From: Acidobacteriota bacterium
Lineage (GTDB): Bacteria > Acidobacteriota > Vicinamibacteria > Vicinamibacterales > UBA8438
NCBI GenBank assembly: GCA_009838525.1
Contig: VXRJ01000010.1
Coordinates: 36,520 to 100,519, forward strand
Length of the DNA: 64,000 bases
Direction of reading: 5' to 3'
This document shows, in pieces, positions 3,625 through 23,776 of the stretch. The first letter of the stretch is position 1, and each line of letters starts with the position of its first letter. The notes below the pieces were generated by a model. That model saw only the letters and a list, made by a program, of their open reading frames with translations, ran no database searches and was not told where the DNA came from. The position numbers and the translations under genes were made by a program.

Positions 3625-4155
3625 CTAGCGCTGCTGCTCGGTGAAGTCCTTGCAGGGCATCGCCCAGGTGTCGCACGAGCCCACCGGCTGATCCTTCAGA
3701 TAGACGAGGCGGTTCACCGTCTCTCCCTCCGGCGTCGTCGTCGTCACCTCGATAGTCAGTTGCTGGCCGCTCGCTTCGAGCGACATCACCTCGTGCATGC
3801 GCGTCTGGCCCTGCGTTCCTTCGGCGATGAGGCGATCACCCTCCCAGCGCGACGACGCGCGCATCGTCGTGTCGCGCCCGACCGGGATGGTCCCCTCGGT
3901 GCCGGGGGTCCACGACCACGCCTTCAGTCCGTTCGTCTCGGTCCCGACGATCAGGGTGCCGTTCGCCGCGTGCGTGATGAACAGCCGATCGATCGACGCG
4001 CCCCCGCGCCCGCCGCTGAACGCTGGCGGAGTGATCCGGCTTGCGTCCCGATCCAGCGTCCAGTAGCCGGAGAAATCCGGTGCCTGGGCGGAGACGATGG
4101 CCGGACCGGCGGCGGCGAGGACGGCCAGAACGATGAGTGCGAAAGTGCTCCGCAT
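3625..4155 (-). CDS. Small secreted protein of unknown function
   Basis: A 176-residue protein. The open frame extends to 4407, but the ATG at 4155 starts a clean signal peptide (MRSTFALIVLAVLAAAG, cleavage near VSAQ/APD). The mature part begins PDFSGYWTLDRDASRI. A DxSGxW-like opening also occurs in the secreted proteins at 47187 and 50561 and is common in acidobacterial exported proteins. The rest is beta-rich with threonine-rich strands (TIEVTTTTPEGE), and two Cys near the C-terminus (GSCDTWAMPC) may form a disulphide. It lies 11 bases downstream of hipA on the same strand, probably by chance. Function unknown. Confidence 0.7.
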   Translation of the reverse strand: MRSTFALIVLAVLAAAGPAIVSAQAPDFSGYWTLDRDASRITPPAFSGGRGGASIDRLFITHAANGTLIVGTETNGLKAWSWTPGTEGTIPVGRDTTMRASSRWEGDRLIAEGTQGQTRMHEVMSLEASGQQLTIEVTTTTPEGETVNRLVYLKDQPVGSCDTWAMPCKDFTEQQR

Positions 4156-19004: not shown

Positions 19005-20225
19005 ATGGGCGCCGCGTACTTCCCCCGCACCCTCACCACCACTATCCGCCGAGCGCTGCGGACATTTCCCGCCGTGATCGTCACGGGCGCGCGGCAAACG
19101 GGCAAGACGACACTACTGCGCGAGGAGTTCGGCGCGACCCATCGTTACGTGTCGCTCGAGCGTCCGGACGTGAGGGAGGTCGCACGCGACGACCCGACCG
19201 GCTTCGTTGCCGACGCCGGTCCTCGCGCCATCCTGGACGAGATTCAGTACGTGCCGGAACTCCTTAACTATGTCAAGGAGGCGATCGACGAGAACCGGCG
19301 ACCGGGCTCCTGGCTGCTGACCGGTTCACAGGACTTCACCCTGATGCGTGGCGTCAGCCAGACGCTGGCGGGACGCGTGGCCGTGCTCCACCTCGATCCG
19401 CTCTCGGTGGCGGAGATCGCAGCCGCCCGCAGCACGCCCACGCTCGCGCGCCTCGTCGCGGGGCGCGCGATCCGCACCGTCGCGCCGCCACCCGACCTGG
19501 GCGACTGGCTCCACCGTGGCGGCTATCCCGAACCCCGCCTCAATCGGCGTGTCGATCGCGATCTCTGGATGCAGAGTTACGTTCAGACCTACCTGGAACG
19601 CGATCTCCGTAACCTGGAGCAGGTATCGGACCTGGAGACGTTTCGCGCCTTCTTCGCCCTGACCTGCGCCTCGACCGGGCAGGTGCTGAACCTGGCCCGC
19701 CTCGGCCGCGACGCGGGGGTGACCGGACCGACCGCCAAGCGCTGGCTCAACCTGTTGGTCGCGAGCCGCCTCGTAGCGCTGCTTCCCCCGTATCACCGCA
19801 ACTTCGGCAAGCGGATCCGGAAGAGCCCCAAGCTCCACCTAGTCGATCCGGGTCTCGCCAGCTGGATGCTCGGCTATCGGACGGTCGACGCGATCCTACA
19901 GGGCCCGGCCCTCGGCGCCCTCACCGAATCCGCCGTCGTCGCCGAGCTCCTCAAGGCGGCCCACAACGGCGGCAGCCCACCCCGCCTCTTCCACTGGCAG
20001 AGCGCCAGTCTCGAAGTGGACATCGTCGCCGACATCGACGGTCGCCTATACGGCATCGAGGTGAAGGCCACGCGCACCCCGACCCTTCGGCACGCCGACC
20101 ACCTCGCCCGTTGGTGTGAGCTGACCGGCGGCAGCGGCCTCCTCGCCTGCCGCACGGATCGGGTCCGCTCGCTCGGCAAGGGAATCCGAGCCGTCCCCTG
20201 GCACTTCTGCGTGGCAGCAGGCTGA
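19005..20225 (+). CDS. AAA ATPase with DUF4143 domain
   Basis: A 406-residue ATPase. Walker A is GARQTGKT (28-35), Walker B is RAILDEIQ (Asp78-Glu79), and sensor-like LLTGSQDF follows. The middle has a winged-helix-like region (LARLGRDAGVTGPTAKRWLNLL). The C-terminal part (FHWQSASLEVDIVADIDGRLYGIEVKAT) carries an E-D-ExK pattern of PD-(D/E)XK nucleases. It shares family but little close identity with the ATPases at 13215 and 22475, so these are separate acquisitions, not recent duplicates. The role is unproven. Confidence 0.9.
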   Translation: MGAAYFPRTLTTTIRRALRTFPAVIVTGARQTGKTTLLREEFGATHRYVSLERPDVREVARDDPTGFVADAGPRAILDEIQYVPELLNYVKEAIDENRRPGSWLLTGSQDFTLMRGVSQTLAGRVAVLHLDPLSVAEIAAARSTPTLARLVAGRAIRTVAPPPDLGDWLHRGGYPEPRLNRRVDRDLWMQSYVQTYLERDLRNLEQVSDLETFRAFFALTCASTGQVLNLARLGRDAGVTGPTAKRWLNLLVASRLVALLPPYHRNFGKRIRKSPKLHLVDPGLASWMLGYRTVDAILQGPALGALTESAVVAELLKAAHNGGSPPRLFHWQSASLEVDIVADIDGRLYGIEVKATRTPTLRHADHLARWCELTGGSGLLACRTDRVRSLGKGIRAVPWHFCVAAG

Positions 20226-21780: not shown

Positions 21781-22237
21781 ATGCGCTATCTGGCCCTCGA
21801 CCTGGAGGTCGGCAAGCGAAACGAGCGAATCAACGCGCTGGCAGCCGTCGATTCCAACGGCAGGTCCTTCGTCCGCACCAGGCTCAAGCAACGCGAGCTT
21901 GATGGCGCCCTGCGCGACCTCGACGATTTCGCCGAACCGGCGGACGTCATCCTCGGCCACAACCTGATCCACTTCGACTTGCCGCACCTGCGCGCAGCGG
22001 CTCGTCCGCGAACGGCGAAACGATCCGAAGCACGACGCCCGGCTCGCGCTTACGCTCTTCGAAGACGAACGCACCGAACTCGGCAAGGTCGGCGCCGACC
22101 TGCTGCTTACTTGGCATTGGCTGACGTCACGGGATGGCGACCTCGTGGCGTTCGATGCGTTGTTCAGGGCGTTGCGGGAGTCTTGGGAAGTCGTGGTGCC
22201 TGAGCTGATCTACGACTCGCGAGGGAGCAGGCAATAG
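21781..22237 (+). pseudogene. Broken DEDD-exonuclease domain gene (likely RecQ-type helicase-associated)
   Basis: From the ATG at 21781 the frame encodes a DEDD 3'-5' exonuclease start: motif I ALDLEV (Asp7/Glu9) and motif II LGHNLIHFDLPHL. At about 21990 the coding sense moves to another frame, which continues LVRERRNDPKHDARLALTL, FEDERTELGKVGADLLL, WHWLTSRDG and FDALFRALRESWEVVVPE to a TAG at 22235-22237. The segment between motif II and the shifted part, which should hold the remaining catalytic residues, is missing. I recall this order from long RecQ-like helicases with an N-terminal exonuclease; the helicase part is absent. Probably a deletion-derived pseudogene. Confidence 0.6.
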
Positions 22238-22353
22238 GAAGAACCGCGGCCCGACCCTGAAAGCTCCGCGGCGTGCCCGTGCCACATGCTGCCGAACGGA
22301 CTGAAGTTCCGCAGTCCTATGCAAAGGGTCCGGCCGAAACACCCGCCAGTCGC

Positions 22354-22416
22354 TCGACAAATCACCCGCTGAAGCTTCGACAAATCACCCGCTGTAACGT
22401 CGACAAATCACCCGTT
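22354..22416 (+). repeat. Three 23-base tandem direct repeats upstream of DUF4143 gene
   Basis: TCGACAAATCACCCGCT occurs at 22354-22370 and 22377-22393, and with one base changed (GTT end) at 22400-22416. The period is exactly 23 bases and the 6-base spacers differ. The array ends 58 bases before the ATG at 22475. A period of about two helical turns puts the copies on one DNA face, as for cooperative binding of a regulator. It is not a CRISPR array: the spacers are too short. Confidence 0.8.
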
Positions 22417-22474
22417 AGGGTTGCGTGGCGCACCGCTGCCGGAGTACAACCTGTGCCAGAAAATTGGGCTGGTT

Positions 22475-23725
22475 ATGACCTACCTGCCGCGAATCGTCGA
22501 TGCCGAATTGGCCGATCTCCTGAAAGCCGCCGGAGCGGTTCTCATAGAAGGGCCCAGGGCAACTGGGAAAACGGCCACCGCCGCCCGGGCGGCACTCAGC
22601 GAAGTGCTGCTCGACGTGGACGACAATGCCAGACGAATGATCGGCGTAGACCCGGCAATCGTTCTGGACGGTGAGACGCCGCGGTTGATCGACGAATGGC
22701 AACTCGAGCCGATCATCTGGAACCACGTCCGCAGGGCGATTGATCGCCGCGGCACCCCCGGCCAGTTCATTCTCACCGGTTCCGCCGTGCCCGCCGACGA
22801 CATCGCCCGGCACACCGGTGCCGGACGTCTTGTTCGCCTGCGCATGCGCCCACTGTCGCTTTACGAAAGCGGGCACTCCAGCGGGGAGATTTCGTTACGA
22901 CGGCTGCTCGACGGTGCGGAGCAACGGACGCCGCAATCGGAAATGTCAATCGCCGCCCTCACCGAGTTCGTCTGTGCAGGCGGCTGGCCGGGCCACGTCG
23001 GCAAGGCTCTGGCCGGCGTCCTCCGCCTGAACCGCGGCTATCTGGACGACGTCCGCCGTACCGACGTATCGCGGGCCGGAGCCAAGACGCGCGACCCGGT
23101 GAAGGTGGGCCGTGTCCTGCGCTCGCTGGCGCGCAACGTGGCGACGCCCGCCTCCCTGTCGACACTGGCTGCCGACGCAGGCGACGACGACCAGGCTCTC
23201 AAGACCGATACTGTGGCCGAGTACTTGGACGCACTCGAACGACTCATGGTGGTGGAAAACCAGCCGGCCTGGTCACCGCACTTGCGGTCGCGCACGACGC
23301 TCCGACGAACGCCGGTCCGGCACTTCGTGGATCCATCACTCGCAGCCGCCGCCCTGAGTGCCGCCCCGGCGCGCCTGACGGCCGACCTCCAGTTCCTGGG
23401 ACTGCTGTTCGAGTCTCTGGTCGTCCGCGACCTGCGTGTCTACGCCCAGAACACCGATGCACAGGTCTTCCACTACCGGGAAAAGGACGGACTGGAAGTG
23501 GACGCTGTGGTCGAGGCGGCGGACGGACGCTGGGTGGCGTTCGAGATCAAGCTCGGCGAACGCTGGGTAGACGACGGCGTGAAGAACCTGCGCAGGCTCG
23601 CCCAACGCATGGAGCAGAGCGACCACGGGAAGCCCTCCGCCCTGGCGGTGATCGTTCCCAGTGGATACGGCCACGTGCGCCCCGGGGAAGTAGGAGTCAT
23701 ACCCATCGGAGCCCTCGGGCCCTGA
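22475..23725 (+). CDS. AAA ATPase with DUF4143 domain
   Basis: A 416-residue ATPase. The ATG at 22475 is followed directly by YLPRIVDAELADLLKAAGAVLIEGPRATGKT; Walker A is GPRATGKT (26-33). The Walker B-like strand is LIDEWQ, in the form common in this subfamily (D-E-W instead of D-E-I). A winged-helix-like part and a C-terminal region with EKDGLEVDAVVEA and WVAFEIKLG give the E-D-ExK nuclease-like pattern. Tandem 23-base repeats upstream suggest dedicated regulation. Third member of its class in this window; role unproven. Confidence 0.9.
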   Translation: MTYLPRIVDAELADLLKAAGAVLIEGPRATGKTATAARAALSEVLLDVDDNARRMIGVDPAIVLDGETPRLIDEWQLEPIIWNHVRRAIDRRGTPGQFILTGSAVPADDIARHTGAGRLVRLRMRPLSLYESGHSSGEISLRRLLDGAEQRTPQSEMSIAALTEFVCAGGWPGHVGKALAGVLRLNRGYLDDVRRTDVSRAGAKTRDPVKVGRVLRSLARNVATPASLSTLAADAGDDDQALKTDTVAEYLDALERLMVVENQPAWSPHLRSRTTLRRTPVRHFVDPSLAAAALSAAPARLTADLQFLGLLFESLVVRDLRVYAQNTDAQVFHYREKDGLEVDAVVEAADGRWVAFEIKLGERWVDDGVKNLRRLAQRMEQSDHGKPSALAVIVPSGYGHVRPGEVGVIPIGALGP

Positions 23726-23776
23726 CGGCCTCCCGGCGCTTGCTTATCGAGACGACGATCCTCGTATCTTCCCGCC

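Follow-up and report, generated by a model that had tools for sequence, protein, structure and literature searches.

The window, by which the whole stretch of 64,000 nucleotides analysed is meant, carries on its forward strand a short array of direct repeats followed by a gene for a protein of 416 amino acids (22475–23725, + strand). The repeat TCGACAAATCACCCG is present in three exact copies starting at 22354, 22377 and 22400, with a period of 23, and the array (22354–22414, period 23) reached a score of 101 in Tandem Repeats Finder, the highest of the 13 rows obtained for the window. A previous, sequence-only reading of the locus had described three near-identical 17-base units with a strict 23-base period, ending 58 bases from the start codon. 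The period and the distance (from 22416 to the ATG at 22475) were both confirmed, while the unit length was about right, 15 bases being exact in all three copies and 18 in the first two, since the third departs after CCCG. These copies, which are units 2, 3 and 4 of the array, occupy 22353–22375, 22376–22398 and 22399–22421 on the + strand, with TCGACAAATCACCCG at 22354–22368, 22377–22391 and 22400–22414. They are preceded by a degenerate first unit (22328–22350, + strand), whose core CCGAAACACC at 22334–22343 keeps 7 of the 10 core bases and lies 23 bp before the first perfect unit, in register. As the same reading had pointed out, the spacers between the units differ and the unit cores do not. 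Between array and gene a probable promoter was recognised by eye (22421–22450, + strand), made up of a -35 hexamer TTGCGT (22421–22426), an 18-bp spacer and a -10 hexamer TACAAC (22445–22450); it was not flagged by a scripted consensus test. Directly upstream of the array, at 21781–22203, a short exonuclease-like reading frame was also found by eye, apparently truncated or frameshifted, which is perhaps an old neighbour broken by insertion.

As regards the protein, the only Pfam families above their cut-offs were DUF4143 (PF13635, E 3e-35, 121.7 bits versus a cut-off of 28.1) and AAA_14 (PF13173, E 1e-9, 38.9 bits versus 27), with no match to a Rep initiator family. The PADLOC model PDLC04790 of the single-gene defence candidate PDC-S01 was matched at E 3.5e-69. 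No NCBIfam match at E 0.01 was obtained for the three proteins tried, and a PDB sequence search with the subfamily alignment A1 (see below) gave 7 matches, all at E 0.18 or worse and none convincing. Together with Pfam and PADLOC, a predicted structure (pLDDT 91.4) points to an AAA+ ATPase, a winged helix and a PD-(D/E)XK-fold domain in one chain. For the AAA+ part, structural resemblance was seen to 2qen, an archaeal ATPase (Z 15.0, rmsd 4.5, 252 residues aligned), and also to NLR/CED-4 proteins. The winged helix, placed at residues 207–300 (23093–23374, + strand), is inferred from the helix pattern of the model (208–220, 228–235 and 244–256), without a domain search. In the predicted C-terminal domain (residues 296–416; 23360–23722, + strand) a PD-(D/E)XK nuclease fold was recognised, nuclease activity being inferred in the absence of any assay. 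When this domain was modelled alone (residues 295–416, pLDDT 89.3), its best match was McrC (6hz4_M, Z 10.6, rmsd 3.0, 117 aligned), and restriction enzymes and other nucleases were numerous among the 50 matches listed; with the domain alone, no Foldseek match reached E ≤ 0.001 (best 1.9e-3). The catalytic residues are conserved throughout the 147 subfamily proteins compared, both in the ATPase (Walker A K32 in 147, Walker B D73 in 146 and E74 in 147) and in the nuclease fold (E313 in 146, D343 in 147, E357 in 145 and K359 in 146), the latter four having been assigned to the D...(D/E)xK motif from their positions, without structural alignment of the site.

A search of the whole genome with CGACAAATCACCCG, allowing up to one mismatch in a 14-base core, returned only the three window sites, and the reversed control pattern gave 0 matches. 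With three mismatches allowed, 4 matches were found in the window against 2.25 expected, which is near chance, so that the evidence consists of the three exact copies in register. The window motif is not a general intergenic repeat, and in this genome neither of the outcomes that would have refuted the sequence-only reading, a motif at random locations or a general repeat, was encountered. Comparison of the window array with plasmids by BLAST gave five weak matches (E 2 to 7), judged to be chance.

The association of array and gene was approached from both sides. Starting from the motif and blind to genes, a motif-pair scan of 84,980 genomes yielded 102 stretches and one of viral contigs 11, of which 108 of the 113 were analysed (5 could not be read by the script); within the phylum of the window, the pair ACAAATCACC-N-ACAAATCACC was present in 2 of 297 genomes. 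A period of 23 was the commonest (44 of the 108 stretches), and a DUF4143-type gene lay directly downstream on the same strand in 22 of these 44 versus 0 of the 64 stretches with other periods; in one more, L070, such a gene starts at the contig end. The conservation of the core in the two seed copies is imposed by the scan pattern; beyond them many units keep the core and others carry 1–3 changes. Judged by their records, seven phyla are represented among the genes (Acidobacteriota, Bacteroidota, Pseudomonadota, Actinomycetota, Bacillota, Spirochaetota and the Verrucomicrobiota/Kiritimatiellota/Lentisphaerota group), across which one 10-bp core is shared. Seventeen of the sequences align as one group, subfamily A1, 37–84% identical to the window protein, and all 17 match PADLOC PDC-S01.

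Arrays were also seen in other settings. Arrays of the ACAAATCACCG type without an adjoining subfamily gene were seen in L035, L048, L091, L095, L098 and L122, the gene next to the array in L048 being PD-(D/E)XK nuclease-like by eye. In L087 the A1 search detected a C-terminal remnant of a subfamily gene just 3' of the array (G312, L156). L064, on contig C19 of genome G303, has a pair of almost identical arrays separated by about 1.2 kb; an intact gene follows one of them, while a short gene remnant with a stop and an XRE-like regulator follow the other.

The reverse test started from the protein. Subfamily genes were gathered by A1 searches, from regions and from plasmid records, deduplicated by protein and accepted at an A1 score of at least 240, the A1 search of 21 genomes having set the subfamily apart from other DUF4143 genes by score. 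Lags from 12 to 60 were compared within 300 bp upstream of each gene, and the one with the best self-match was taken. The best lag was 23 or 46 in 175 of 190 subfamily genes (111 of 120 in a first harvest, 64 of 70 in a second), and in 153 of the 168 that lack the scan pattern. Among masked control genes of the same loci, one per locus with some loci overlapping, it was so in 8 of 200, where 2 of 49 possible lags predict about 8. Likewise, a lag-23 score of at least 15 was reached by 149 of 190 subfamily genes versus 1 of 200 controls, and the only strong control, L122, was one of the arrays that the motif scan had picked up. An earlier control (lag 23 or 46 in 31 of 217; score of at least 15 in 20 of 217) had been dropped, being affected by shadow reading frames over arrays and by unmasked loci. 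Exceptions exist: 15 of the 190 genes have another best lag and 41 score below 15 at lag 23. The boundary is soft, lags of 23 or 46 being found also in 10 of 12 genes scoring 150–240; below 150, 5 of 24 genes had a lag-23 score of at least 15, including the truncated member L070, and distant relatives with a lag-23 array are L185, L187, L188 and L189. Outside the 190, four gut phage records all had a best lag of 23. At least three copies were present in 79 of the 82 arrays that register to a common scaffold.

These counts, which are computed, support as the general rule the 23-bp period and the pairing of array and gene, rather than the particular sequence of the window. They bear out the association of motif and DUF4143 genes that the sequence-only reading had proposed to look for in the genome and its relatives. 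The selected binding site tied to a DUF4143 ATPase that it had suggested is likewise upheld in its linkage, with the restriction that the tie holds for one subfamily and near relatives only and that binding remains inferred. In the genome of the window (4.29 Mb) there are 19 DUF4143 genes and the motif occurs at only one; of the 18 others, L020 was not scored, and none of the 17 examined had a best lag of 23. The second DUF4143 gene of the window, at 19005–20225, matches PDC-S01 better (E 2e-108) than does the gene with the array. The array is, in short, a trait of one DUF4143 subfamily and some near relatives, not of DUF4143 at large. Three DUF4143 genes lie within about 10 kb on contig C10 of this genome (G000:C10:49890, 56115 and 59582), the last two being the window genes 19005–20225 and 22475–23725.

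Promoter-like sequences, which are consensus matches and not mapped promoters, lie 3' of the array in many subfamily genes. The counterparts of the window promoter are TTGCCC-N18-TACAAC in L110 (L151) and TTGCCT-N18-TACAAC in L116 (L166), and in these two relatives and the window the promoter-like sequence begins 6–8 bases past the last CCCG. A -10-like hexamer was located 26–30 bases past unit position 16 in 20 of the 37 arrays that have one, and the Bacteroidota element TAnnTTTG at 37–40 in 9 of the 15 that have it, the others being at 14–17, 27 and 48. Moreover, in L159, L252, L253, L315 and L319 an ATG coincides with the expected transcript start; such genes place the array upstream of the mRNA. 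A helical phasing of promoter and array was considered and rejected: strong for the Bacteroidota promoters, it vanished when distinct offsets were counted once.

It is here that a neutral origin of the array, by tandem duplication or slippage without function, or its being a transcribed RNA element, can be weighed. Tandem repeats do arise easily, and Bacteroidota ATCACC repeats of other periods look like simple-sequence expansion. Nevertheless, the spacers diverge and the cores do not, a lag of 23 or 46 prevails in nearly all subfamily genes, and promoter-like sequences 3' of the array leave it probably outside the mRNA, so that we give this explanation hardly any credence.

The sequence of the unit is by no means constant. 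Paralogues in one genome have differing units with the same 23-bp period, as in G307, where CCACAAATCACCGAATGG (L085), CCAAGTTCCACAACGAAAA (L159) and CCACAACTGACACAATGAAAA (L169) coexist. A sister clade with A1 scores of 240–400 uses GGTAGCGTA, and 16 of its 50 genes have two or more copies spaced by multiples of 23 bp; GGTAGCGTA arrays were found in 0 of 140 genes of the core clade, and the reversed motif in 0 of 50 of the sister clade. The GGTAGCGTA clade, which includes L203, L204, L205, L234, L235, L237, L239, L268, L297 and L298, was found in two of the searched phyla and on the Prosthecochloris plasmid pPAES01.

The distribution of the subfamily is patchy, which suggests horizontal movement. 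Matches occurred in 4 of 199 genomes of the window's phylum and 13 of 247 of that of G299 (E limit 1e-60), in 31 of 246, 7 of 249, 11 of 145 and 5 of 120 genomes of the phyla of G300, G303, G307 and G304, respectively (E limit 1e-50), and, in narrower sets, in 41 of 246 of the class of G302 and 18 of 193 of the class of G307. These frequencies are rough, because the sets include the gene-bearing centre and only the best 7–14 candidates per genome were scored. Plasmids and phages contributed further matches, with 11 plasmid records (Collinsella with 4, Bacteroides with 2 and Prosthecochloris being among the sources) and four records of gut phages, while single-protein viral searches added one new contig, L360. 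A subfamily relative without a clear array, L212 (Actinomyces oris, NZ_CP116225.1), adjoins a type I-U cas operon.

In addition, array, promoter and gene form a block common to the window, L116 and L110 (22335–23736, + strand, by blastn). Window positions 22335–23736 align with 4957–6353 of L116 at 80% identity, and 22337–23725 with 1334–2726 of L110 at 79%; the shared block, 79–84% identical pairwise, runs from the degenerate first unit, inside which the homology begins, to the stop codon or at most 11 bases beyond. Its left edge is sharp in all three pairs, and on the right the window and L110 are homologous again from 24523 on, in a DUF1501-type region. An RNase H gene lies upstream of the block in L116 and downstream in the window, with no match in the 8 kb of L110, and L116 has a DUF4143 relative downstream of the block. 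A block shared between partly rearranged neighbourhoods implies that array and gene travel as one, although their movement as a cassette is inferred from these alignments and no clean insertion site has been shown.

In iteron plasmid replicons the gene of the binding protein adjoins direct repeats of about 20 bp arranged head to tail, and Orc1/Cdc6 proteins combine AAA+ with a winged helix. The locus could on this model be a replicator-initiator pair, the array being an iteron- or ORB-like origin or partition site, the ATPase an Orc1/Cdc6-like initiator, and the whole a small selfish or plasmid-derived module. In fact, the first Foldseek match of the whole model was Cdc6/Orc1 on origin DNA (2qby, E 2e-5), and subfamily genes do occur on plasmids, as stated above. 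In haloarchaea there are several initiator genes per genome, and orc/cdc6 genes adjoin intergenic ORB repeats, as described in the available passages of PMC3528665. The 2qby TM-scores were only 0.21–0.27, however, and among the 971 chains re-aligned both 2qen and the NLR/CED-4 proteins outrank 2qby. The haloarchaeal repeats are replication origins, whereas the window system has a promoter-proximal array and a nuclease-fold domain, without evidence of replication. From the iteron replicons, which it resembles in having direct repeats beside the gene of a presumed binding protein, the subfamily differs in lacking a Rep match, in its patchy spread over chromosomes and plasmids and in the setting of the window copy, a contig of 316 kb (316,020 bases, in a 38-contig assembly). 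Also in favour of a replicator is L099 (JAKBES010000177.1), a contig of 7690 bases from an Acidobacteria MAG, where three ACAAATCACCG repeats at 23 bp lie at about 4035–4115, with ACAGATCACCG 22 bp ahead of them; among its genes one is weakly RepA-like (Pfam RPA and RepA_C, below the cut-off) and one ParA-like by eye. No subfamily ATPase was found in L099, and its repeats are possibly plasmid iterons which have converged on, or share, the motif. As the placement of the promoter also suits an operator, we regard a replicator as an improbable explanation.

Which protein reads the array was addressed by covariation. Over 82 arrays, array similarity tracks protein identity (Mantel 0.48, 0 of 300 permutations), so that units and proteins diversify together in these computations. 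Beyond overall identity, residue 245 ranked first of 395 columns in explaining array similarity, and residues 242–250 first among nine-residue segments; in a supervised comparison, 5 of the 15 columns best separating ACAAATCACC-type proteins from near relatives fall in 240–248. A scan of 335 columns against 23 unit positions (79 arrays, effective number 34.7) gave, as top pairs by z-score, 337 with 3, 245 with 13, 229 with 12 and 243 with 14, and the top 16 also included 337 with 2, 245 with 12, 338 with 3 and 245 with 14. Residues elsewhere rank high too (195, 303, 380, 14 and 401 in the top 12; 155, 280 and 403 in the top 16), and the z-scores, available for no more than the top 400 of 7,705 pairs, come from 60 permutations which ignore relatedness. 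In the model, D245 (codon 23207–23209) stands at the start of the third winged-helix helix (244–256), and K337 (codon 23483–23485) in a hairpin preceding E341/D343.

For the residue tests, the positions tested were masked in registration and the residues tested were excluded from the tree; 80 of 147 usable arrays could be put in one register (67 could not). From these 80, the 337 table omits 25, which have other residues, R among them, or a base that is ambiguous, and the 245 table omits 17. G stands at unit position 3 in 25 of 26 arrays of K337 proteins versus 1 of 29 with S, A or N (Fisher 2e-13), and among nine path-disjoint tree contrasts 8 agree, none is opposite and 1 is a tie; R337, left out of the table, is mixed at position 3. 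G stands at position 14 in 36 of 46 arrays with D/E245 versus 2 of 17 with N/P245 (Fisher 2e-6), with 6 of 7 tree contrasts in agreement and 1 opposite. Residue classes and bases of both tables were picked after viewing the data. A dinucleotide prediction for residue 245, stated beforehand, was exact in only 11 of 18 new arrays; most of the misses still share position 14, which is a post hoc rule. In a small hold-out, later K337 proteins had G at position 3 in 3 of 3 cases (L355 by script, L358 and L360 by eye), L360 failing the N245 rule. The window pair itself fits K337-G3 (TCG) and breaks the 245 rule, having D245 with CC, and thus C and not G at position 14.

Covariation of this kind is indirect and binding data are lacking; within these limits it points to the ATPase itself as the binder of the array. 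A host transcription factor could be imagined instead, with the ATPase only the regulated gene, since an array on the promoter side is the usual place for an external regulator. A host factor is an unlikely reader, however, because one unit is found in seven phyla and yet paralogues of one genome have differing units, and the bases of the unit covary with residues of the ATPase. We consider this alternative very unlikely.

The strongest covarying residue is located in a hairpin adjacent to E341/D343, two conserved residues of the nuclease. This, the near-invariance of the nuclease site and the membership of the family in PDC-S01 allow a further interpretation, by which the array serves less for regulation than as the place where a nuclease or defence activity is targeted or docked, the protein being stored or switched off at its own locus, or else cutting DNA that lacks, or that carries, the array. 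The fixed orientation and the site next to its own promoter are, nevertheless, already accounted for by autoregulation, and the absence of the motif elsewhere in the window genome leaves no general target there. This interpretation is improbable in our opinion, if slightly less so than the preceding ones.

The reading that we prefer, and hold to be probable without being assured, in the absence of binding or expression data, is that the array is the cognate operator of its ATPase, which would bind to it and regulate its own gene. One protomer would read one 23-bp unit by means of two of its elements. Unit positions 12–14 would be contacted by the N-terminal end of the third winged-helix helix (residue 245 and neighbours), and positions 2–3, roughly a helical turn from there, by the hairpin of the nuclease fold (residue 337). 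Along the array, at least three protomers would stack head to tail at the fixed 23-bp step, probably in a cooperative manner through the AAA+ domains, and the stack would adjoin or cover the -35 region of its own promoter. The likeliest output would be autorepression, holding a potentially toxic ATPase-nuclease at a low level until needed. Near-consensus TTGACA promoters abut the array in L159, L252, L253 and L259, which, as a matter of predicted promoters, argues weakly for repression; position alone does not decide between repression and activation, and the sign of regulation is inferred.

A bolder proposal can be built on the same operator, namely that these are self-addressed cassettes, in which an ordered, inactive AAA+ stack on its own array both silences the gene and stores the nuclease, infection releases the nuclease, and the addresses diversify, coexist without cross-talk and are predictable from two residues or a few. 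Taken as a whole it is speculative and more likely wrong than right, and the defence role within it is inferred. If true, reading of the address would be shared by the winged helix and a hairpin beside the nuclease active site, and coexisting cassettes would resemble phage immunity groups or plasmid incompatibility groups.

Among the systems already described, McrBC (AAA+ McrB, nuclease McrC) is close through the C-terminal domain, whose nearest match is McrC; in the window protein, by contrast, a single chain combines the ATPase and the nuclease fold, separated by a winged helix, and an array stands in cis. COG1373 is presumably the same family as the DUF4143 ATPases. It appears in a table of horizontally shared genes of gut mobilomes (PMC10782964), and DUF4143 is named in PMC4406477, as far as the passages available go. 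According to excerpts of two other papers, PDC-S01 or DUF4143 ATPases count among the commonest candidate defences of prokaryotes (PMC12988326) and PDC-S01 ranks first in frequency among the individual loci of rumen genomes (PMC13356809). Arrays are not mentioned in the available passages of these four papers, and no validation of phage protection by PDC-S01 was found in the literature passages on the candidate. PDC-S01 comprises the window protein and all A1 members, but also DUF4143 genes without arrays, such as 19005–20225. The nearest regulatory parallel is RptR, the repressor of a phage-defence island, which, in the portion of PMC12255303 available, regulates itself by binding DNA and has three direct repeats in the promoter of its gene, 31–58 bp upstream of the start. 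RptR acts there as a homodimer; its repeats measure 9 bp and its minimal site is a palindrome of 6 bp, whereas the window system has an ATPase-nuclease and units every 23 bp, without evident palindrome and differing between paralogues.

Among the matches listed in searches of the open-licence PMC literature, no description of the array-bearing subfamily, its motif, its 23-bp arrays or the covariation was found, nor any ligand, target or regulator of DUF4143 ATPases. The family was known as the defence candidate PDC-S01, and the array subfamily, its period and the covariation are undescribed in the literature searched. The sequence-only reading is supported as right, and it understated the case. 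With binding still an inference, one subfamily of PDC-S01 gains a DNA sequence as its specific partner, a mode of reading in two parts and predictions at the level of single residues. Furthermore, the results suggest that members of the subfamily may be recognised by their arrays, and that these genes and their arrays may constitute a natural set of orthogonal regulator-operator pairs.
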